This document shows positions 10,449 to 61,333 of a DNA stretch of 64,000 nt, in pieces. Numbering within the stretch: the first letter of the stretch is position 1; each line of letters starts with the position of its first letter. The translations under genes and the position numbers were made by a program. Below the pieces are notes generated by a model. It was not told the origin of the DNA. It worked only from the letters and a program-made list of their open reading frames with translations, and did not search any database. This DNA comes from Nitrospirota bacterium (GTDB lineage: Bacteria > Nitrospirota > Thermodesulfovibrionia > UBA6902 > DSMQ01). The stretch covers positions 1-64,000 of the forward strand of contig JACQXB010000016.1 in NCBI GenBank assembly GCA_016208965.1, given 5' to 3'.

Positions 10449-11406
10449 GTCTCAGTATCTCCTCCACAAGGTCTTTAAAACTCATGCCTACTGATTGGGC
10501 TATCTTCGGAAGCAGGCTTGTCCCTGTCATTCCCGGAAGGGTATTTACCTCAAGTATATAAGGAATACCACTTTCATCTATTTTAAGGTCAACCCTTGTA
10601 GCCCCCGAACATCCAATCGCTGTATGTGCATTAAATGCGGACTCCTTAGCCTTATCATAGACTTCGCTGTCAATTTGCGGCGGGATTATATACTCAGTTA
10701 ATCCTGATGTATACTTGGCTTCATAATTATAAAATTCCAGTGATGGTCTTACCTCTACACCACCCAAAACCCTGCTGCCGAGCATCCCTATATGGACTTC
10801 TCTGCCATTTATGAATTTTTCAATTATTGCCTTTTTGCCAAACTGAAATGCCTTCTCCAACGCAGATGCTAATCCGTTTTCTTCTTTCACTATATTTATC
10901 CCAACACTTGAACCCTCTCCTACAGGCTTTACAACCCATGGCAGATCAAAGATAGGTGACAAGTTACGAGTAACAAGTGACGAGTCTTTATTTTTACTCG
11001 TAACTCGCAACTCGTTACTCGTTACTGCCTTAAATGGCGGAACAGGTAGTCCATGATATAGAAATATCTTTTTTGATGCCTCCTTATCCATAGCAAGCGC
11101 AGATGCCAATACCCCTGAACCTGTATAAGGTATTCCTAATACCTCAAGCATTCCCTGCATTGCGCCATTCTCACCTATGCCTCCATGAAGTGCAAGAAAG
11201 GCAACCCTTGCCTTTTCTTTCTTTAGTACATTTACAACGTCTTTGCTCACATCTATTAGCACAGAGTTATAGCCAAGCTCTTGCAACGTTTGATACACAG
11301 CAAGACCGCTTCTGATGGAAATATCCCTTTCAGATGATTCACCACCCATTAATACACCTATTCTCTTTGTGGTTATCAAACCTTTAGTCATACCCAGTAA
11401 AATCAA
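10411..11406 (-). CDS. ddl: D-alanine--D-alanine ligase with in-frame repeat insertion
   Basis: [23 protein letters not shown]-grasp motifs, [18 protein letters not shown]; internal [24 protein letters not shown] is repeat-encoded. Confidence 0.95.
10955..11026. repeat. Heptamer-arm/core element inside ddl
   Basis: Coding strand AGTAACGAGTAACGAGTTGCGAGTTACGAGTAAAAATAAAGACTCGTCACTTGTTACTCGTAACTTGTCAC. Confidence 0.85.
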
Positions 11407-12652: not shown

Positions 12653-14094
12653 TTTTCATTCCGCACTTTTAACTTTAAAAACTCTTCTCCAATCTTCCAT
12701 ACATCACCTGCACCGAGTGTAATAAACATGTCCCCTGTCCTTAGGTATCCCGAGAGATACCCTGAAATCTCGCCCTTGTCCTTTATATATTCCACATCCT
12801 TTCCCTCTGCCTTTATACCTTTAGATAAGAGAGCTGAATTTATTCCATCTATAGGTTTTTCCCCTGCAGGATAGATGTCCATAAGAAGAACCTTGTCTGC
12901 ATCACTGAATGCACTATAAAACTCTTTCAGCAAATCCTTTGTCCTTGTATATCTGTGGGGTTGGAAAAGCACAACCAATCTACCTTTATGAGGCTTGAGT
13001 TCGGCGTTTGAGGTTTGGAGTTTTTTATCTTGCATCCTGTATCGTGCATCGTGTATCTTTACCTCTTTTGCTGCCTTAAGTGTTGCAATTATCTCTGTAG
13101 GATGATGTCCATAATCATCAAATACCTTTATACCTTCTTCCTCACCCTTAAATTCAAATCTCCTCTGAACACCACTGAAGTTTTTAAGGGCATCCCTTAC
13201 ATTATTCATATCAAGCTCAAGTTCATTTGCCACTGCAATAGCAGCAAGACTGTTATAAACATTATGTATTCCAGGAAGTGGAACCTCAAATATACCCAAT
13301 GATTTACCTTTTAACAATGTTTCAAATCTTACTCCGAAACCCTCTGTTTTTATACTTTTTGCTGTAAGGTCTGCCTTGCCCTCTACGCCATAAGTAATAT
13401 ATCTACGTTGAACATATGGTAATATCTCTCTTATATAAACATTGTCTATACAGAGCACGGAAAGACCATAAAATGGCACCTTATTTATAAAGGCAAGAAA
13501 TGCACCTTTAAGTTCATCAATATTCTTAAAAAAATCCATGTGCTCTTTATCTATATTCGTTACCACAGCAACAATTGGGGAAAGCTTCAGAAATGAGCCA
13601 TCACTCTCATCTGCCTCAGCAACAAGGAATTCGCCTTCTCCTAACTTTGCATTACTTCCAATACCTTTTAACTTGCCTCCTATTACAACTGTTGGGTCAA
13701 GCCCTGCACCAGCAAGTACACTTGCTATTAAAGATGTGGTCGTGGTCTTCCCATGTGCGCCTGCTACGAGGATGCTTTGTTTAAGTCGCGCAAGTTCTGC
13801 AAGCATTTCAGCTCGAGGAATAACAGGGATTGATTGCTCTCTCGCAGCAATGACTTCAGGATTATCCCATGAAACTGCTGAAGAGATAACAACAACATGG
13901 GCATTAAGGACATTCTCTGCCTTATGTCCTATAATAACCTCTATCCCCAAGTACCTTAATCTTTTTGTGGTCTCTGTCTCTTTCATGTCCGAGCCTTTAA
14001 CTGTATAGCCGAGGTTCTTAAGCACCTCTGCTATGCCGCTCATCCCGGAACCGCCTATCCCGATAAAATGAACTATTTCAAATTTTTTATACAT
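12637..14094 (-). CDS. murC: UDP-N-acetylmuramate--L-alanine ligase
   Basis: HFIGIGGSGMSGIAEVL, AGAHGKTTTTSLIASVL, FDDYGHHPTEI; internal HDARYRMQDKKLQTSNAELKPHKG is repeat-like. Confidence 0.97.
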   Translation of the reverse strand: MYKKFEIVHFIGIGGSGMSGIAEVLKNLGYTVKGSDMKETETTKRLRYLGIEVIIGHKAENVLNAHVVVISSAVSWDNPEVIAAREQSIPVIPRAEMLAELARLKQSILVAGAHGKTTTTSLIASVLAGAGLDPTVVIGGKLKGIGSNAKLGEGEFLVAEADESDGSFLKLSPIVAVVTNIDKEHMDFFKNIDELKGAFLAFINKVPFYGLSVLCIDNVYIREILPYVQRRYITYGVEGKADLTAKSIKTEGFGVRFETLLKGKSLGIFEVPLPGIHNVYNSLAAIAVANELELDMNNVRDALKNFSGVQRRFEFKGEEEGIKVFDDYGHHPTEIIATLKAAKEVKIHDARYRMQDKKLQTSNAELKPHKGRLVVLFQPHRYTRTKDLLKEFYSAFSDADKVLLMDIYPAGEKPIDGINSALLSKGIKAEGKDVEYIKDKGEISGYLSGYLRTGDMFITLGAGDVWKIGEEFLKLKVRNEKWTKR

Positions 14095-16483: not shown

Positions 16484-16498
16484 ATCTTACATCCTGTA

Positions 16499-18094
16499 TT
16501 ATGCATCTTGCATCTTGCATCTTGCATCTTGTATCTTGTATCTTGCATCTTGCATCTTGCATCTTGCATCTTGCATCTTTCTTACCGCCGCTTTGAACTT
16601 TCTTCCCCTGTCTTCAAAGTCTAAAAACATATCAAAACTCGCACAACCCGGGGAAAGCAATACAACATCACCTCTCTGGGCTTTTGACATAGCTGCCTCT
16701 ATAGCCTCCCTTAAACTATCAACAAGCACTGTATCCACAACATCTCCAAGCGCCTTTTCAATCTTTTCCTTTGCTTCGCCAAGTAATATAAGGGTCTTAA
16801 CCCTTCCCCTCACCAAATCCCTTAAGACCGTAAAATCCCCTGCCTTATCCCTTCCACCCATAACCAGTATTACTTTCTGAAAACTTTCCAGAGATTTGAT
16901 AACCGCTCCTATATTAGTCCCTTTAGAATCATTGATAAAACTAACCCCATCAACTTCACAAACAAATTCAAGCCTGTGTTCAAGCCCCGGGAATTCCTTA
17001 AGCACATTCCTCACAGCATCTGCTGAACAGCCGGAAATTATGGCTGCTAAGGAAGCTGCCATCGCATTCTCAAGATTATGAACTCCTTTAATCTTTATTT
17101 CATCAACTGAGATAAGTGGGAAGTGAGAAGTGGAAAGTGGGAAGTAAGGAGATTTTCCATAAATTACGCCATCTTTAAGGTAAACGCCATTCACTTCTCT
17201 TTGGCGGCTGAAATAAAGAAGCTTTGGTATTTCACTTTTAACTTTTAACTTTTCACTTATAACTTTTGTTACAGGATCATCGGCATTAAGAATCAGATAG
17301 TCACTCTCTGTCTGATTTTCAAAAATCCTTGCCTTGGCATCAATATACTCTTCAATATTGTGGTATCTATCAAGATGGTCAGGGGTGATATTAAGGATGC
17401 TTGCAACCTTTGGTCTAAAATCTATTATTGACTCCAACTGAAAGCTGGAAATCTCAGCAACTATATAATCAAGTAACGAGTAACGAGTAACGAGTAACGA
17501 GTCTTTGTCTTTACTTGTAACTTGTAACTTGTTACTTGTTACTATCTTATAAATTTCTTCTGTTAAAGCATTGCCGATGTTGCCCCCCATTATTGTCCTG
17601 AAGCCTGCCTTCTTTAACATCAAATCAATAAGGGTCGTAGTAGTTGATTTTCCGTTTGTCCCTGTGACAGCTATGAAAGGCAGTGATGAGTGATGAGTGA
17701 TGAGTGATGAGTTTAGTTTTGAGTTTTGAGTTTTGAGTTTTGAGTTTTTACTCATAACTCGTAACTCGTTACTTGTTACTATTTGGTAGGCAAGTTCAAG
17801 TTCACCAATCACTGGTACCCCCCTTTCTCTTGCATGCATAATGGGCGGAATATCAAGCGGCACACCTGGACTTATAACTATCATGTCTGCTTTATTAAAG
17901 ACCTCTTCCGGGTGTCCACCCGTGACAATTTTAACCTGAGGGGATAATCTCTTTATATCATCCTTTAAAGAATTGATTGGCTTTATATCTGTTACCCATA
18001 CATTTGCACCAAGATAAATGAGTAGGTTTGCCGCGCCTATCCCGCTTCTGCCTAAACCAACCACGATGATATTCTTATTCTTTAATGTCTTCAT
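16499..18094 (-). CDS. murD: UDP-N-acetylmuramoylalanine--D-glutamate ligase with several repeat-encoded insertions
   Basis: VVGLGRSGIGAANLL, VTGTNGKSTTTTLIDLML, FINDSKGTNIGAVIKSLE; insertions [34 protein letters not shown] and VTSNKLQVTSKDKDSLLVTRYSLL; C-terminal KMQDARC repeats. Confidence 0.96.
   Translation of the reverse strand: MKTLKNKNIIVVGLGRSGIGAANLLIYLGANVWVTDIKPINSLKDDIKRLSPQVKIVTGGHPEEVFNKADMIVISPGVPLDIPPIMHARERGVPVIGELELAYQIVTSNELRVMSKNSKLKTQNSKLNSSLITHHSSLPFIAVTGTNGKSTTTTLIDLMLKKAGFRTIMGGNIGNALTEEIYKIVTSNKLQVTSKDKDSLLVTRYSLLDYIVAEISSFQLESIIDFRPKVASILNITPDHLDRYHNIEEYIDAKARIFENQTESDYLILNADDPVTKVISEKLKVKSEIPKLLYFSRQREVNGVYLKDGVIYGKSPYFPLSTSHFPLISVDEIKIKGVHNLENAMAASLAAIISGCSADAVRNVLKEFPGLEHRLEFVCEVDGVSFINDSKGTNIGAVIKSLESFQKVILVMGGRDKAGDFTVLRDLVRGRVKTLILLGEAKEKIEKALGDVVDTVLVDSLREAIEAAMSKAQRGDVVLLSPGCASFDMFLDFEDRGRKFKAAVRKMQDARCKMQDARYKIQDARCKMQDA
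16502..16578. repeat. Heptanucleotide array, 11 units of TGCATCT/TGTATCT
   Basis: Direct reading; 77 bp = 11 x 7, encodes the murD C-terminus. Confidence 0.97.
17471..17543. repeat. Heptamer-arm/core element in murD
   Basis: aagtaacgagtaacgagtaacgagtaacgagtctttgtctttacttgtaacttgtaacttgttacttgttact. Confidence 0.93.
17682..17781. repeat. Composite heptamer array in murD (tgatgag, ttttgag, taactcg units)
   Basis: gtgatgagtgatgagtgatgag...gttttgagttttgagttttgag...ctcataactcgtaactcgttacttgttact. Confidence 0.93.
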
Positions 18095-18100
18095 CTCTTC

Positions 18101-19117
18101 TCACAGCAATTTTTGCACGGGGTTAGATTTTAGAATAATTCCGACAGGGTTTAATGCCCCGCTGGAATTTCTAACGGAGTTTACTTTTTTAACGTTTGAT
18201 TTACTTGCAGGAGCAGAATATACAGCGGTCTCCTTTTGATCTTTTATAGCCCTATAACCCTTTTCAAAGAGCATCTCGGATTCGGTCCAGAGAGTCTTTC
18301 TACTTGGAGAGCCTAAAATAGCAGTTACGAGTTTTACATCCTCCTTATTTGCAACCCCAACAAAGCAATGCCTTGCTAACCTCGTAAAGCCTGACTTACC
18401 AGCTATAATATAATCGCCTCTCCAGAGCAACTCATTTGTATTTCTTAAGAAAATCTTTCTTCTATTTATAGTTATTCCCTTAACCTTAGTAGAAAGGATC
18501 TCCTTTATATCTGGAATTGTCATAGCATACTGCATTGTCTTAGCAAGGTCATAAGCTGTTGAATACTGCCCCTTTCGGGGAAGCCCATTTGCGTTAATAT
18601 ATCTTGTATTAACAGCACCTATTTCCAATGCCTTCTTGTTCATCAATCTCACAAAACTCCATTCATTGCCTGTAACTGCTTCTGCAAGAGCAGTTGCAGC
18701 GTCATTAGCTGATTCCATCAGTGCAGCATACAAAAGGTCTCTAATTTTCACCCTGTCACCTTTTCTTAAATTTATCTTTGATGGCTGCTGGTTAGCAGAC
18801 TTACTGCTTATGGTTACTACCTCATCCATATCTAAACGCTCTACTGCAACAATCGCAGTCATTATTTTTACAGTGCTCGCAGGGAAAAGCCTCAGTTCAG
18901 GGTTTTTCGCAAAAAGAACCTCATCTGTTGATGCATTAATAACAATTGCAGAGCGGGCAGTAACTTCATCAGCATTAGCTACAGTAACAAGTGACAAGTG
19001 ACAAGTGACAAGCAATAGAAACAGTAACAAGCGGCAAGTGACATGCGATAAGTCTTTTATTAACCTTCTACTTATGACTCGTAACTCGTAACTCGTAACT
19101 CGTAACTTTTCTTTCAT
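18101..19117 (-). CDS. dacA: D-alanyl-D-alanine carboxypeptidase (DacA/PBP5 family) embedded in dcw cluster
   Basis: NPELRLFPASTVKIMTAIVAVERL (SxxK), SANDAATALAEA (SxN), IAGKSGFT (KSG); start refined to MKEKLRV at 19117 preceded by AGGTGA. N-terminus is heptamer-repeat encoded. Confidence 0.9.
   Translation of the reverse strand: MKEKLRVTSYELRVISRRLIKDLSHVTCRLLLFLLLVTCHLSLVTVANADEVTARSAIVINASTDEVLFAKNPELRLFPASTVKIMTAIVAVERLDMDEVVTISSKSANQQPSKINLRKGDRVKIRDLLYAALMESANDAATALAEAVTGNEWSFVRLMNKKALEIGAVNTRYINANGLPRKGQYSTAYDLAKTMQYAMTIPDIKEILSTKVKGITINRRKIFLRNTNELLWRGDYIIAGKSGFTRLARHCFVGVANKEDVKLVTAILGSPSRKTLWTESEMLFEKGYRAIKDQKETAVYSAPASKSNVKKVNSVRNSSGALNPVGIILKSNPVQKLL
18972..19111. repeat. Heptamer arrays encoding the predicted signal peptide of the DD-carboxypeptidase
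   Basis: gtaacaagtgacaagtgacaagtgacaag ... cgtaactcgtaactcgtaactcgtaac. Confidence 0.9.
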
Positions 19118-19119
19118 GT

Positions 19120-20202
19120 TCACCTCACCTTTAATGTCGTTAAACTCAATAGTGCAAGTATAATACCTATTATCCAGAATCTCACTATAACCTTTGGCTC
19201 GGGCCATCCTTTTAATTCAAAATGGTGGTGTATAGGAGTCATCATAAATATTCGCTTCCTTGTAAGTTTATATGATGCAACCTGTAAAATCACTGAGATG
19301 GTTTCAATAACAAAAATACCACCAACCACTGCTAAGACTATTTCGTGCTTTGTTATCACAGCGAGTGTGCCCAGTGCACCACCAAGACTAAGGGAACCAA
19401 CATCCCCCATAAAGACCTCCGCAGGATAACTGTTATACCACAGAAAACCTAAGGCAGCACCGAATATGGCGCCACAAAATACTGTAAGCTCACCCATTCC
19501 AGGCAAATAAATCACATGGAGATACTTTGCAAGACCTGAATGTCCGGATATATAAACAAGCGCGCCATTTGCGAGTGTTGCAATACCAATAAGTCCGATA
19601 GCAAGCCCATCTATGCCATCAGTAAGATTGACCGCGTTAGAGGAGCCAACAATAACAAGTATGGAGAACGGAATATAAAACCATCCCATATCTATTAACC
19701 ATTTCTTGAAGAAAGGAATACTCAGTGTTGATGCATAGGGGTCAAGGGGGTCATTATAAAGCAGTAAGCCAATTATTAGTGCAAGGATTATCTGGGCTCC
19801 AAATTTATACCACCCGCCCAGCCCCTTTGAATTCTGCCTTGTAATCTTCAGATAATCATCCATAAATCCAATAATGCCAAATCCTGTGGTTGCAGCAAGC
19901 ATTACCCAGATATACTTATTTCTAAGGTCAGCCCACATAAGAACACTCAGGAGGATTGACAAGAGTATTATAATCCCTCCCATTGTTGGAGTCCCTACCT
20001 TACCGAGATGGTTCTTTGGACCGTCCTCCCTTACATATTGGGTAAGACTAAATTTCTTTAATTTTTCTATCATATAAGGTGCAAAAATAAAACTCATTAG
20101 GAGCGCTGTAATTACAGCAAGGGCAGTTCTGAAGGTAATGTATCTGAATACATTAAATGGTGAAAACCAATCATGCAGACTATAAAAAAGGGTAGCCAAC
20201 AT
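19120..20202 (-). CDS. mraY: Phospho-N-acetylmuramoyl-pentapeptide transferase
   Basis: KVGTPTMGGIIILLSI, NAVNLTDGIDGLAIG, PIHHHFELKGWPEPKVIVRFWIIGI. Confidence 0.97.
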   Translation of the reverse strand: MLATLFYSLHDWFSPFNVFRYITFRTALAVITALLMSFIFAPYMIEKLKKFSLTQYVREDGPKNHLGKVGTPTMGGIIILLSILLSVLMWADLRNKYIWVMLAATTGFGIIGFMDDYLKITRQNSKGLGGWYKFGAQIILALIIGLLLYNDPLDPYASTLSIPFFKKWLIDMGWFYIPFSILVIVGSSNAVNLTDGIDGLAIGLIGIATLANGALVYISGHSGLAKYLHVIYLPGMGELTVFCGAIFGAALGFLWYNSYPAEVFMGDVGSLSLGGALGTLAVITKHEIVLAVVGGIFVIETISVILQVASYKLTRKRIFMMTPIHHHFELKGWPEPKVIVRFWIIGIILALLSLTTLKVR

Positions 20203-21671
20203 TATCTCTGCCCCCCGAACTCATTTATTGTCTCTGCAATTTTTTCCATTGTCATTGAGCGTGAACCCTTTACAAGCACTGTATCGCCTGCCATGAGGAT
20301 ATCGGGAATATTCTGTTTAGCCTCAGATATGTCTTTAAAGGTGTAAATTGCAGTGTGTGAACCATTTTTAGATTTTTTTATCTCTTCCACCGCGATTTTC
20401 ATCATATCCCCTACCGCTACAAACACCTCAATGCCTATTTTTGAAACCATCCTCCCGACTTCTCTGTGTAAATCCACTGAAAATTCCCCAAGTTCGTTCA
20501 TGTCTCCAAGTACTGCAACCAATCTGCCTTTCCCCCTGAAATGTGTTAGCTCCTTTAAAGCCTCTCTCATAGATGCAGGGTTTGCATTATAAGAATCATT
20601 TATCAACGTTATATCTCCTCTTATGACCTCAAATCTCATTGGAAATGCCTTATAACCTTCAAGCGCCTCCTTTATCTCATCAACAGTAACTCCAAGGGAA
20701 AAGCAAACAGCAGATGCAGATAGGACGTTATATATATTAAAAACACCGTGTACATAAAGGTTAACCTCCCTTTTGTCTCTATCGTTAAATACAAGTGTAA
20801 ATCTGCTTCCCTTCTCTGTCATTACTACTTCCTCTGCCTTTACCCAGTCCCGACGCTTCGGGACCGGGTTTACCTGAGAATTGGCATTAATCGAAAATGT
20901 TACCTTCTCTCCTCTAAAACATCCCCTTGCTTCAGCATCAATTACCCCCTGCATTAAGAAGTCATCATCTGCATTAATTACTGCAACCTTAAGGTTTTCA
21001 AGGATTTCAAGCTTTGCACCCCTTACAGCCTCAATGCTCCCAAGGTTACCAATATGAGCAGGTGATATATTCGTAATTACCCCATACGTTGGGAGAACTA
21101 TCTCGCATAATCTTCTTATCTCACCTACAGCATTCATACCAAACTCAAGGACAGCAATCTCATCATCATGTTTAATCTTTAAAAAGCTCAAAGGGACACC
21201 TATATGGTTATTTAGGTTTCCATCATTTTTAAGAACCTTAAACCGCTTCAAAAGAATCTCATACACCATCTCCTTTGTTGTTGTCTTCCCGTTACTTCCT
21301 GTGATTGCAACCACTGGGATATCTCTATTTATCCTTAAAAAGTGGGCTAAATCCTGTAGTGCCCTGAGGGTATCATGAACAATAATAACCGTGAACCGTG
21401 AACCGCCCACCCCGTCCCGACGCTTCGGGACGAGGCCGGGGTGAACCGTGAACTGTGACTCTCTTTCTACAACAACCCCTCCTGCCTCTCTTGATATTGC
21501 ATCCTTAATAAAATCATGCCCATCAAACCTTTGCCCTTTTAATGCAAAGAAAATCTCTCCCTTCTTAATGGTTCGTGAATCTATAGAGACACCTGAGAAG
21601 GACTTCACACTCTCAGATGCTAATTTTCCACCTGTTGCCTTAATAATATCTTCTCCTGTTAACATCGCCAT
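20202..21671 (-). CDS. murF: UDP-MurNAc-tripeptide--D-Ala-D-Ala ligase with repeat insertions
   Basis: VSIDSRTIKKGEIFFALKGQRFDGHDF, ITGSNGKTTTKEMVYEIL, INDSYNANPASMREAL; insertion ESQFTVHPGLVPKRRDGVGGSRFTVIIVHD. Confidence 0.96.
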   Translation of the reverse strand: MAMLTGEDIIKATGGKLASESVKSFSGVSIDSRTIKKGEIFFALKGQRFDGHDFIKDAISREAGGVVVERESQFTVHPGLVPKRRDGVGGSRFTVIIVHDTLRALQDLAHFLRINRDIPVVAITGSNGKTTTKEMVYEILLKRFKVLKNDGNLNNHIGVPLSFLKIKHDDEIAVLEFGMNAVGEIRRLCEIVLPTYGVITNISPAHIGNLGSIEAVRGAKLEILENLKVAVINADDDFLMQGVIDAEARGCFRGEKVTFSINANSQVNPVPKRRDWVKAEEVVMTEKGSRFTLVFNDRDKREVNLYVHGVFNIYNVLSASAVCFSLGVTVDEIKEALEGYKAFPMRFEVIRGDITLINDSYNANPASMREALKELTHFRGKGRLVAVLGDMNELGEFSVDLHREVGRMVSKIGIEVFVAVGDMMKIAVEEIKKSKNGSHTAIYTFKDISEAKQNIPDILMAGDTVLVKGSRSMTMEKIAETINEFGGQR

Positions 21672-21718
21672 AATCTCCTAAAAAACTGATGCAAGATTCA
21701 TGATTCATGATTCATGAT

Positions 21719-23350
21719 TCATGATTTTTTATCCTGCATCCTGTATCTTGTATCCTCTTTAAGTTTCTCCCTTATCGCCTTCTCCGCTATCTCTCTATCT
21801 CTGAATTTATGCCTTGCGCCTTTTATCTCCTGGTAATCCTCGTGCCCCTTTCCTGCAATCAGCAGTATATCGCCTTCTTCTGCGGTCTCCACCGCCTTCT
21901 GAATAGCCTTCTCCCTGTCGGGTTCAATTGTATAATTCATCCTCAATGCGCCTTTCTCTATCGCTTTTATTATGTCCATCGGTTCTTCGCTGCGGGGATT
22001 ATCAGAGGTTATCACGACGTAATCACTTAATTCTGTTGCTGCTGCCCCCATTCTAGGCCTTTTGCCTCTATCCCTGTCACCCCCGCATCCAAATACTGTT
22101 ATCACCTTTCCAGGGGTTATCAATCTTGTCTCCTCAATAAGTTTTCTTAAGGCATCCTCTGTATGAGCATAATCTACTATACAGAGGAAACCTTGCCCCA
22201 TATCAATTCTTTCAAATCTGCCTTCAATAGGTTCTACTTCTCTTACACCTTTTTTTATTGCCTCTTCACTTATACCGAGGGCGTATGCAATCCCAACAGA
22301 CATAAGGATATTGTAAACATTATTCCATCCAACGAGTGGAGAGTCTATAAATAACTCTCCTCTCGGCGTTTGAACTTTAAATGAAAGCCCCCTTGAAAGT
22401 AACGAGCAACTATTTTTTAGTAACGAGTTTGTGGAATTTTCTTTACTCGTAACTCGTCCAAAGGATGCTTCGCATAACTCGTTACCTGTTACTGTCTTTT
22501 TGTTACTTGTTACTTGCAACTTGTAACTATCTGTAATTGCCCTTATCATTGCTCCCTCTTCAAGCCCACATGTTATGACTTTGCAATTCAGTTTTTCTGT
22601 GAGGCTCCTTACCATCAGGTCATCCCAGTTCAACACAGCAAAGCCGTCTTTTTCGAGATAATCAAAGAGCCTGGACTTGGCAGTAAAATATTCATCCATT
22701 GTCCTGTGAAAATCTAAATGGTCCTGTGAAAAATTGGTAAATACCCCTACTTTAAAGGAACAGCCATTGACCCTCTTAAGCGCCAATGCGTGCGAAGATA
22801 CTTCAATTACAACATACCGCACTCCTTTATCTATCATCTCCCTTAGGTATCTCTGAAGGTCTAAAGATTCGGGGGTAGTATGAGGTGATGGAATGGTTTT
22901 GCTGCCTATAACATAACGAATTGTCCCTAAAAGTCCTGTGCTCTTTCCCCACGCATTGAGTATACTTTTTGTAATATAACTCGTTGTTGTCTTGCCGTTT
23001 GTTCCTGTAATACCGATAAGGGATAAGCTCTTAGAAGGTTTTCTGTAAAAAGTAGAAGAAAGATCAGCCAGTACTTCCCTGCTATCAGCAACCTCTACAA
23101 ATATAACGTTATCACCAAATTGACCTGAGCCTATTAAATCTACTGTCCTATCTATTACCACAGCAGTAGCACCCCTGCTTATGGCGTCTTCTATGTAAAA
23201 GTGGCCATCAGAAGTAAACCCTTTGACAGCCACAAAGAGAAAACCATCTTTTACTAATCTTGAGTCGTAGGCAACCCCCTTTATCTCTTTATCAAGTCTC
23301 CCGATGATCCTCTTTGCTTTTATACCACTTAAAAGCTCCGTAATTGTCAT
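21719..23350 (-). CDS. murE: UDP-MurNAc-L-Ala-D-Glu--2,6-diaminopimelate ligase with repeat insertion
   Basis: VAYDSRLVKDGFLFVAVKGFTSDGH, ITGTNGKTTTSYITKSIL, SDNPRSEEPMDII (DNPR motif); insertion around TDSYKLQVTSNKKTVTGNELCEASFGRVTSKENSTNSLLKNSCSLLS. Confidence 0.96.
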   Translation of the reverse strand: MTITELLSGIKAKRIIGRLDKEIKGVAYDSRLVKDGFLFVAVKGFTSDGHFYIEDAISRGATAVVIDRTVDLIGSGQFGDNVIFVEVADSREVLADLSSTFYRKPSKSLSLIGITGTNGKTTTSYITKSILNAWGKSTGLLGTIRYVIGSKTIPSPHTTPESLDLQRYLREMIDKGVRYVVIEVSSHALALKRVNGCSFKVGVFTNFSQDHLDFHRTMDEYFTAKSRLFDYLEKDGFAVLNWDDLMVRSLTEKLNCKVITCGLEEGAMIRAITDSYKLQVTSNKKTVTGNELCEASFGRVTSKENSTNSLLKNSCSLLSRGLSFKVQTPRGELFIDSPLVGWNNVYNILMSVGIAYALGISEEAIKKGVREVEPIEGRFERIDMGQGFLCIVDYAHTEDALRKLIEETRLITPGKVITVFGCGGDRDRGKRPRMGAAATELSDYVVITSDNPRSEEPMDIIKAIEKGALRMNYTIEPDREKAIQKAVETAEEGDILLIAGKGHEDYQEIKGARHKFRDREIAEKAIREKLKEDTRYRMQDKKS

Positions 23351-42384: not shown

Positions 42385-44529
42385 ATGGCTTTCTGGCATG
42401 ATATAGAACGGGATTATAAGGCTATCTTTGAGAGAGACCCGGCAGTAAGAAACGGGCTTGAAATTATCTTTGCATATCCCGGATTCCATGCGATATTTCT
42501 TCACAGGATTAACCATTTCCTTTGGAACATAGGCATTCCTGTTATCCCAAGATTTCTATCACACATAGGAAGATTTCTCACAGGCATTGAGATACATCCG
42601 TGTGCAAAGATTGGTGCGGGTTTTTTCATTGACCACGGCATGGGTGTAGTTATAGGAGAGACATCTGAGATAGGGGAAAACGCAACTCTTTATCAGGGAG
42701 TTACACTTGGAGGCACGGGCAAGGAAAAAGGTAAGAGGCACCCTACGCTTGGCAATAATGTAGTTGTTGGGACAGGGGCAAAGATCCTCGGTGCGATAAC
42801 AATCGGAGATAATGTTGCAATAGGCGCTAATTCAGTAGTGCTTAAATCCATTCCCGGAAACTCAATTGTTGTAGGTGTTCCGGGAAGGGTAACAAAAAAG
42901 AGAATAATAAGGATGACAACAGAGGAAGGTTTGATAGAGGTGATGGATCATTTCCCTGACCCTTTATTAGAGAGGCTTGAAGAGCTTGAAACTAAGGTCA
43001 CTGAGCTTGAAAAGGATATTGAGGCAATGGAAAAACAAAAAGAGAGAGATAAGGTAATGAGGGTATACAACACGCTTACTGGAAAGAAGGAGGAGTTTAT
43101 TTCCATTAATCCCGGCAAGGTAGGCATGTATGTATGCGGGATAACTGCTTATGATGTATGTCATCTGGGGCATGCAAGAAGCGCTATAGTTTTTGATGTC
43201 ATGAAGAGATATATGAGATACAGCGGATTTGAGGTAAGGCATGTCAGAAACATTACTGACATTGACGACAAAATAATTAAAAGGGCAGCACAGGAAGGTG
43301 TCTCTACTGTGGATATTGCAAAGAAATATACAGAAGAATACTACAGAGATATGGACAGACTCGGGGTAAGCAGGGCTGATGTTGAACCAAAGGCAACCGA
43401 GCATATCCCTGAGATGATTGAGATTATAAAAGGGCTGATTGAGAGTGGATATGCATACAGTGTTCATGGGGATGTATATTTCAGGGTCAGCAGGTTTTCT
43501 GATTACGGGAAACTTTCAAGAAGAAGCCTTGATGACATGATGGCAGGGGCAAGGGTTGAGGTGGATGAGAAAAAGGAGAATCCGCTGGATTTTGCATTGT
43601 GGAAGGCGTCAAAACCGGGTGAGCCGTGGTGGGACAGCCCATGGGGAAAAGGAAGACCGGGCTGGCATATAGAATGCACTGCAATGTCGATGAAGTATAT
43701 GAAGTATATGGGAGAGAGTTTTGATATTCATGGAGGAGGCGCGGATTTAATCTTTCCGCATCATGAAAATGAAATTGCGCAGTCAGAGGCATTTACAGGC
43801 AGGCCTTTTGTAAGATACTGGCTTCACAATGGGTTTATTACTGTTGACAAGGAAAAGATGTCCAAGTCTTTGGGGAATTTCTTCACGATTAAGGAGATTC
43901 TTGATAAGTATGACCCTGAGGTTGTGAGATACTTTCTACTTTCAACCCATTACAGAAGCCCGATAGAGTTTTCTGATGCGCAGTTAAGTGAATCTGAGGT
44001 CTCTATTGATAGATACTATTCAACTGTATTAAGGGTCAATGACTTCTTAAATGAGCCATCAGCCATCAGCCATCAGCCATCAGCCATTAAAGTGGTTGAA
44101 GAGTTTGAAAAACAAATATCCTCTTTGAAAGAAAAATTTATGGATGCAATGGATGATGATTTTAATACTGCACTTGCACTTGGACATATTTTTGAACTCA
44201 TAAGGGAAGCAAATAAATTTCTTGATGCCAAGCCAAGAGGGCAGAAGGCAGGGGAGCTTGTTGCAAAATCAAAAGAAGTTTTAACTGAATTAGGCAATAT
44301 TCTTAATATATTTAACAGGACGCCGCATGAATGGTATATCTCGCTTATGAAAGTAAAAAATGTTGGTTTTACCGAAGGGGATATTCTTAATGAAATAACC
44401 AAGAGGCACGGGGCAAGACAGAAGAAAGACTGGGCATTGGCAGATAAGATAAGAAATGAACTGGAAGAAAAAGGTATTATCCTTGAAGATAAAAAGGATA
44501 CAACAAAATGGAAAATTAAGGTTGGTTGA
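42385..44529 (+). CDS. Serine O-acetyltransferase fused in frame to cysteinyl-tRNA synthetase (CysE-CysS)
   Basis: CysE: [40 protein letters not shown]; CysS: [82 protein letters not shown]. Confidence 0.93.
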   Translation: [714 protein letters not shown]

Positions 44530-45269
44530 TGGAGATAGCAGAAGCTCTGAGGCTCGTTCAAGGGAAAATTGTAAACTCTGCACTCAGGGCTGGAAGGAAT
44601 CCCGCTGAAATAAAAATAATTGCGGTTACTAAAACTGTAAGTATTGAACATATTCAGGAGGCAATAGACGCAGGATTAAGGATATTTGGGGAAAACAGGG
44701 TTCAGGAAGCTCAAAAAAAAGTTACAAGTTGCAAGTTGCAAGTTGCAAGTAAAGACAAAGACTCGTTACTCGTTACTCGTTACTCGTTACCTAAGATAGA
44801 ATGGCATTTAATAGGAAATCTACAGAGAAACAAGGCAAAGTATGCGGTTCAGTTATTTGACCTTATTCATACCATTGATTCCATCGGAATTGCAGAGGAA
44901 GTCAATAAACAGGCTGAGAAGATAGGCAAAACCCAAAGGGTTCTTGTTCAGGTTAAATTATCTAAAGAGGAGACAAAACACGGGGTTTCAGAGGAGGATT
45001 TAATGCCCTTGCTTGAAATGATAAGTAATTTGAGAAACTTAAAACTTGAAGGGCTGATGACCATGCCTCCTTTTTTTGATGACCCGGAAAAAGCAAGACT
45101 GTATTTCAGGAGATTAAGAGAATTAAGGGATAATATTAACAAGTTACGAGTTACGAGTTACGAGTTACGAGACTTATCTATGGGTATGTCCAATGACTTT
45201 GAAGTTGCAATAGAAGAAGGGGCAACTATGGTAAGAGTCGGGACGGCGATATTTGGGGTGAGAAGATAA
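44526..45269 (+). CDS. YggS-family PLP homeostasis protein with two repeat insertions
   Basis: KIIAVTKTVSIEHIQEAIDAG..FGENRVQEAQKK, WHLIGNLQRNKAKYAV, LSMGMSNDFEVAIEEGATMVRVGTAIFG. Confidence 0.94.
   Translation: MMEIAEALRLVQGKIVNSALRAGRNPAEIKIIAVTKTVSIEHIQEAIDAGLRIFGENRVQEAQKKVTSCKLQVASKDKDSLLVTRYSLPKIEWHLIGNLQRNKAKYAVQLFDLIHTIDSIGIAEEVNKQAEKIGKTQRVLVQVKLSKEETKHGVSEEDLMPLLEMISNLRNLKLEGLMTMPPFFDDPEKARLYFRRLRELRDNINKLRVTSYELRDLSMGMSNDFEVAIEEGATMVRVGTAIFGVRR
44722..44792. repeat. Heptamer-arm/core element in yggS
   Basis: gttacaagttgcaagttgcaagttgcaagtaaagacaaagactcgttactcgttactcgttactcgttac. Confidence 0.93.
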
Positions 45270-61240: not shown

Positions 61241-61330
61241 CCTGTATTTTGCCTCTGTATTTTGCCTGTATTTTGCTGTATTTTCCTGTATTTTCTCCCC
61301 TGTATTTTCTGCTGTATTTTCTGTATTTTC
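61241..61330. repeat. Irregular tandem array of TGTATTTT (8 copies)
   Basis: cctgtattttgcctctgtattttgcctgtattttgctgtattttcctgtattttctcccctgtattttctgctgtattttctgtattttc. Confidence 0.95.
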
Positions 61331-61333
61331 TGT

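Follow-up and report, generated by a model that had tools for sequence, protein, structure and literature searches.

In-frame palindromic heptamer-repeat inserts in the Mur and Ddl ligase genes of a groundwater Nitrospirota bacterium and its relatives

The Mur and Ddl ligase genes of an uncultured groundwater bacterium carry in-frame, palindromic inserts, most of them built of tandem heptamers, at addresses that recur across its order. We consider it probable that these inserts are copies and remnants of small palindromic DNA elements, themselves probably mobile, and that tolerant loops are refilled from a genome-specific pool. The main kind of element would consist of two arms of about four tandem heptamers each (~31 nt), inverted around a short spacer, and the second kind would be a plain GC-rich hairpin. 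Copies that enter the surface loop of a soluble housekeeping enzyme in frame, and oriented so as to lack stops, would persist and be translated as extra flexible loops. Accepting loops of this kind in the ligases of the Mur and Ddl types, in HemC, in LeuRS, and in ArgRS would explain the recurrence of addresses across the order, and the heptamer word at each address would be replaced from the genome-specific pool. We infer that the elements move, that protein tolerance acts as the filter, and that the host derives no benefit.

The window is a 64,000-nucleotide stretch of a 1.67 Mb draft genome from a free-living lineage, the nearest named relatives of which are Nitrospirota (Thermodesulfovibrionia). 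Its dcw cluster runs on the minus strand, in the order ftsI-like, murE, murF, mraY, a DacA-like gene, murD, ftsW, murG, murC, murB, and ddl. The genome background comprises a sample of ~300 kb (18%), from which two contigs consisting entirely of N were left out, and the 64 kb window. All of the genomes compared are drafts, and genes were called as longest ORFs, so that some gene ends may be misplaced, while internal sites are unaffected. An Rfam scan of the window detected a tRNA only. The window also contains 8-bp repeat blocks of the GAAGTTGG type (894-1464), 10-11 bp units in irregular CTGTATTTTG arrays (61241-61333), and two dispersed repeats that are probably other mobile repeats: one of 128 nt (11459-11586/32642-32769, 97% identical) and one of 157 nt (41651-41807/58046-58202, 91% identical).

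Inserts in the ligase genes of the dcw cluster

Table 1. Host genes, inserts, and arrays in the window
Feature	Position	Strand	Description	z
murE host gene	21719..23350	-	intact ORF; NCBIfam NF001126, 581.7 bits (cut-off 373)	
murE composite insert	22395..22530	-	aa ~274-318 (SYKLQVTSNKKTVTGNELCEASFGRVTSKENSTNSLLKNSCSLLSRG); AGTTACA-type array, middle, inverted CTCGTTACT units	
murE 3′ end/spacer	21688..21754	-	GATACAA/GATGCAG units (last 11-12 codons), then ATGAATC units past stop; inverted pair	
murF host gene	20202..21671	-	intact ORF; NCBIfam TIGR01143, 394.9 bits (cut-off 288.6)	
murF insert 1	21387..21460	-	GTTCACG heptamers, ~4.4 units in total, split by GC-rich hairpin	-3.5
murF insert 2	20842..20870	-	12-bp hairpin CCCGGTCCCGAAGCGTCGGGACTGGG; codes NPVPKRRDW	-5.5
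DacA-like gene, 5′ end	18983..19107	-	two opposed arrays; start codon uncertain	-3.0
murD site 1	17682..17780	-	forward array, ACTCAAA array, ACTCATC array	-5.4
murD site 2	17472..17545	-	complete 71-nt element, (AGTTACA)4-AGTAAAGACAAAGACT-(CGTTACT)4	-3.4
murD site 3	17114..17265	-	AAGTTAA/AAGTGAA arm (17230-17265) and CTCACTT arm (17114-17145) flanking a conserved segment	
murD C-terminal array	16484..16579	-	GATGCAA, 13.7 units; crosses stop codon	
murC heptamer array	13027..13057	-	period-7 array	
ddl palindrome	10951..11026	-	two arms of four heptamers each; site common to G040 and G006	-5.8
YggS-type (Ala_racemase_N) gene	44719..44790	+	copy of 71-nt element; 44720-44790 is 93% identical to murD site 2 copy	

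The sequence-only reading had placed repeat blocks in murF at 21391-21463, with a hairpin, and at 20845-20870 (NPVPKRR). Both are real, and their limits are refined in Table 1. Insert 1 codes for QFTVHPGLVPKRRDGVGGSRFTV, and its hairpin core, GTCCCGAAGCGTCGGGAC, lies at 21414-21431. Insert 2 is a separate hairpin, with the core of insert 1 and without heptamers. This core has 7 matches at ≤3 mismatches, as compared to 0.00 expected, and the murF-type hairpin is rare in the genome, as GTCCCGANGCNTCGGGAC is found at 7 places. At the insert 1 site, other arrays occur in G003/L032 (GATTCAA) and in L035 (GAGTTCA), while insert 2 was found only in this genome and in none of the orthologues compared. 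In the AlphaFold model of MurF, insert 1 (about residues 70-93) is a loop between strands 65-69 and 94-98, with a pLDDT of 51-65, and insert 2 (about residues 261-275) is a loop with a pLDDT below 50 at 266-271; the rest of the model is confident.

The murE block encodes the peptide exactly as quoted in the earlier reading. The orthologue alignments to MurE break at residues ~272 and 319, where the insert is missing from most orthologues or other arrays stand in its place. The loop concerned lies between GAMIRAEN and LSF. Several relatives have a very short version of it, and others have a different heptamer array there (GTCAGAA, GACAGAA, GTCAGCA, GGAGTCA, AACAGAC, or GGGGCAA), in several cases with a C-rich or G-rich hairpin behind the array. 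The AlphaFold pLDDT is below 50 at residues 280-318, between strands 269-281 and 319-328, and the remainder of the model is confident. The MurE and MurF inserts are thus extra loops rather than domains, absent from most orthologues. The murE insert is a longer composite, and its closest match is the LeuRS insert at G000:C50:11026-11145 (L200/L202). The array reported at the C-terminus of MurE (21690-21760) exists, but it is coding only in part: the stop codon lies at 21719-21721, and the remainder is the murE–murF spacer.

In the predicted fold of the ddl insert, each heptamer contributes 6 bp and one mismatch. The DacA-like gene (18101-19207, minus strand) lies between mraY and murD; its called start overlaps mraY, and its arrays may fall within the leader.

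The proposal that inserts are unusually dense in the Mur/Ddl ligases was borne out, as the density was above the genome mean rather than equal across genes. Period-7 arrays occur in 6 of the 11 dcw genes of at least 700 bp and in 23 of 155 sampled genes (Fisher p 0.004), with densities of 0.98 and 0.157 per kb, respectively; this comparison is post hoc in the discovery genome, and it recurs in ten relatives. Over the 11 genomes, 32/45 ligase genes contained arrays, as compared to 49/479 of the other genes. When the discovery genome was excluded, the counts were 27/40 and 19/294, and with a further reduction to one genome per genus they were 11/15 and 14/154; the other genes of the relatives represent short samples. 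The Mantel-Haenszel odds ratios were ~62 with the discovery genome, ~52 without it, and 36 with one genome per genus. The direction was uniform, while the p-values overstate independence because the genomes share ancestry and addresses. Hairpins with a stem of at least 11 were likewise enriched, being found in 10/45 ligase genes versus 16/477 others. In none of the genomes sampled do mraY and ftsW, which encode membrane proteins of the cluster, contain arrays.

Heptamer arrays and the dispersed AGTTACA element

In the window, 588 bp belong to period-7 arrays, as compared to 0 in base-shuffled copies, while periods 5, 6, and 9-13 yielded 0-2 segments. The arrays qualify as long simple sequence repeats (LSSRs), defined as tandem units of 5-11 nt beyond chance. 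Their length peaks at four units, 30-33 nt, in 53 of 118 arrays here and 62 of 175 in the relatives, far above chance extension. A reading-frame cause of this peak (three added units being 21 nt) was rejected, since the same peak occurs in and between genes (48/111 versus 53/119). A G-quadruplex explanation was likewise discarded, as most of the heptamer words are not G-rich. Moreover, the arrays are paired: 75 neighboring pairs were observed versus 20.8 expected (3.6 times random placement), and 39 of these 75 show an inverted match of at least 16/21, as compared to 14 of 192 controls. Elsewhere in this genome, the NuoG-like (L112:6127-8622) and ThyX (L113:16587-17360) genes contain perfect AGCTATC and AGCACTC quads within the CDS, and in the window a CysRS gene (42385-44529, plus strand), with an N-terminal hexapeptide-repeat (acyltransferase-like) part, contains an AGCCATC array at 44051-44087.

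One family is dispersed as a complete element of ~71 nt, spacer included; the longest composite reaches ~140 nt. The element is present in murD and yggS, with further copies in C31, at C37:85227, and in C35. The ORFs that host its copies encode YggS, MurD, PMT/PAP2 (mannosyltransferase), LpxK, QueC, an aminotransferase, LeuRS, HemC, Ddl, and cobalamin enzymes, and the copies read SYKLQVT...DSLLVTRYSL (SYKLQVT...SLLVTRYSL). Read one way, the AGTTACA unit is stop-free, whereas the opposite reading includes TAA, and therefore the in-gene copies of the family yield one peptide. Members of the AGTNRC family are numerous in this genome and in G019, G006, and G009, while most other genomes have few or none. 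G019, G006, and G009 are examples of array-rich genomes, and G020, G032, and G045 of array-free ones. In G001, the reversed control pattern TGARCRN is abundant, indicating a genome with its own heptamer word.

The words shared between genes, together with the conserved spacer, require copying between loci. Local microsatellite expansion, in which polymerase slippage adds 7-nt units in place and nothing moves, is unlikely, although several observations fit it. In many bacteria, heptanucleotides are described as the most frequent type of long simple repeat (Mrazek 2007, cited in PMC4679880 and PMC4692102), ~seven AAGACAG units in G029 correspond to four AAGTCAG units in its congener G031, CCAACCC units gained at MurD site 1 of G029 are missing in G031, and the MurD C-terminal tail has 13.7 units. 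However, slippage predicts a monotonically falling copy-number distribution, in contrast to the four-unit peak seen both within and between genes, and it does not provide for inverted pairing, for a spacer and both arms common to unrelated genes, or for words common to the genes of one genome.

Shared addresses and genome-specific words

The recurring addresses are three internal sites and the C-terminus in MurD, and one site each in MurC, MurE, and Ddl. The elements at the shared loops of the relatives are heptamer palindromes, GTAG-type REPs, and C-rich hairpins. Where this genome has a heptamer element at MurD site 2, the insert of four relatives is a REP palindrome of the GTAG type (GTAGGGGCGGGTTTGAAACCCGCCCCTAC or a variant); at site 1, three relatives have a GTAG-type REP, and in the MurD of G008 a heptamer quad adjoins a REP. 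The GTAG tag occurs only in inserts of G029, G031, G036, G040, and G008. Outside the cluster, 9/9 of the relatives examined carry arrays in HemC, for the most part at two shared sites; the count is 7/9 for LeuRS and 5/9 for ArgRS, and sites recur in all three enzymes, which were selected because the discovery genome has inserts there. The array enrichment is thus not specific to the ligases. Shared addresses require either inheritance or a strong filter, and the different element types at one address favor the filter, a tolerant loop. Accordingly, of the two possibilities raised earlier, that the essential ligases are tolerant or targeted, tolerance is the better reading: unrelated elements fill the same loops, and HemC, LeuRS, and ArgRS behave alike.

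The words themselves follow the genome. Near-identical array pairs amount to 14.1% for different genes of one genome, 3.2% within a genus, and 2.2% between genera, and in label permutations the observed within-genome, different-gene mean was reached in 0/500. For same-site arrays between genera the value is 7.6%, below that for different genes of one genome. This difference, as well as the presence of REPs and heptamers at one address, argues against insertions in the order's ancestor followed by vertical inheritance with sequence drift only, which we regard as quite unlikely overall. That history would account for the identical addresses in most genomes and for the same-site similarity, which is above random (p 0.0005). 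It would also account for MurD site 3, the exception, where one heptamer family is kept across families; at some sites, such as this one, inheritance explains the data better than re-insertion. Another quite improbable scenario is a trans-acting system that writes or rewrites four-unit arrays at fixed addresses with a genome-specific 7-nt word, from a template or source element, such that many essential genes change their word together.

A function of the inserts in the host, such as pacing of translation by hairpins in the mRNA or regulation of the Mur ligases by the loops, seems highly improbable. The predicted hairpins are stable and the inserts persist at fixed addresses, which would fit such a role; on the other side, words and element types are freely swapped, and the corresponding sites of MurE and MurD are empty in several relatives. 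In addition, no covariation between the arms was found in seven element copies, which gives no sign of RNA-hairpin selection.

This lack of covariation, MurD site 3, the draft state of all the data, and three single-contig relatives with no period-7 arrays in the stretch read also count against our preferred reading of small, probably mobile elements. Of the features of a MITE, the elements have inverted arms, while no target-site duplication, parent transposon, or mobilizing gene was identified. Y1/RAYT transposases seem unlikely as the mobilizer: Y1_Tnp genes are present in 34/41 genomes, but at 20 Y1-transposase loci, also counted against mobility, neither a heptamer pair nor a GTAG REP was found in closely flanking positions, and the heptamer arrays there are distant, unpaired, or at the gene start.

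Comparison with known palindromes and heptamer repeats

Rickettsia is the best-known case of palindromes inserted in frame in essential genes; there, as summarized in PMC10969869, in-frame palindromic elements (RPEs; Ogata 2000, 2002) are established. The present inserts behave like RPEs: they are palindromic and dispersed, and they lie in frame in unrelated housekeeping ORFs with one peptide per family. They differ from RPEs in their size, about 70-140 nt as opposed to about 150, in their heptamer-built arms, in the free-living Nitrospirota host, in words that differ between genomes, and in addresses shared across the order.

The REPs tagged with GTAG/CGTC are also short palindromes, some of them intragenic, and in two Xanthomonas species differing REPs occupy nearly the same position in recB (PMC3733652), a precedent for shared addresses; moreover, the MurD of the relatives has true GTAG REPs. 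In contrast, the heptamer elements and the murF hairpins lack the GTAG/CGTC tag, the heptamer palindromes are longer than the 20-40 bp of a REP, and the host genes, which for REPs are mainly those of DNA repair, encode here Mur/Ddl ligases, HemC, and tRNA synthetases.

The tandem hepta-/octanucleotide elements of Geobacter metallireducens, which are described as regulatory sites of fixed consensus (PMC2700814), resemble our arrays in their four tandem heptamers in and between genes, and other classes there have opposed tandem-repeat pairs at variable distance; in-frame coding inserts at conserved enzyme sites are not reported there. The 7-nt LSSRs of Xanthomonas and Nostoc (PMC4692102) and of Beggiatoaceae (PMC4679880) share the unit length, and four units are the commonest in Xanthomonas. 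However, a single fixed word, G-rich or TAACTGA, is repeated there and attributed to G-quadruplexes or regulation, whereas many non-G-rich words here keep the four-unit rule and pair in inverted orientation. The palindromes of nematomorph mitochondria (PMC6649704) likewise lie within coding sequence and come and go, but they are mitochondrial and have long perfect arms without heptamers.

We found no report that joins in-frame palindromes with heptamer repeats or names Mur ligases as hosts. The inserts provide a natural map of insertion tolerance in Mur ligases, tRNA synthetases, and HemC, and they call for caution in annotating and modeling proteins from such genomes. Unlike in Rickettsia, the palindromes occur here in a free-living lineage, at shared addresses in core enzymes, with a rule of four heptamer units and with genome-specific words. 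The address is thereby separated from the sequence, and it becomes testable what makes 7-nt repeats so common among bacteria.
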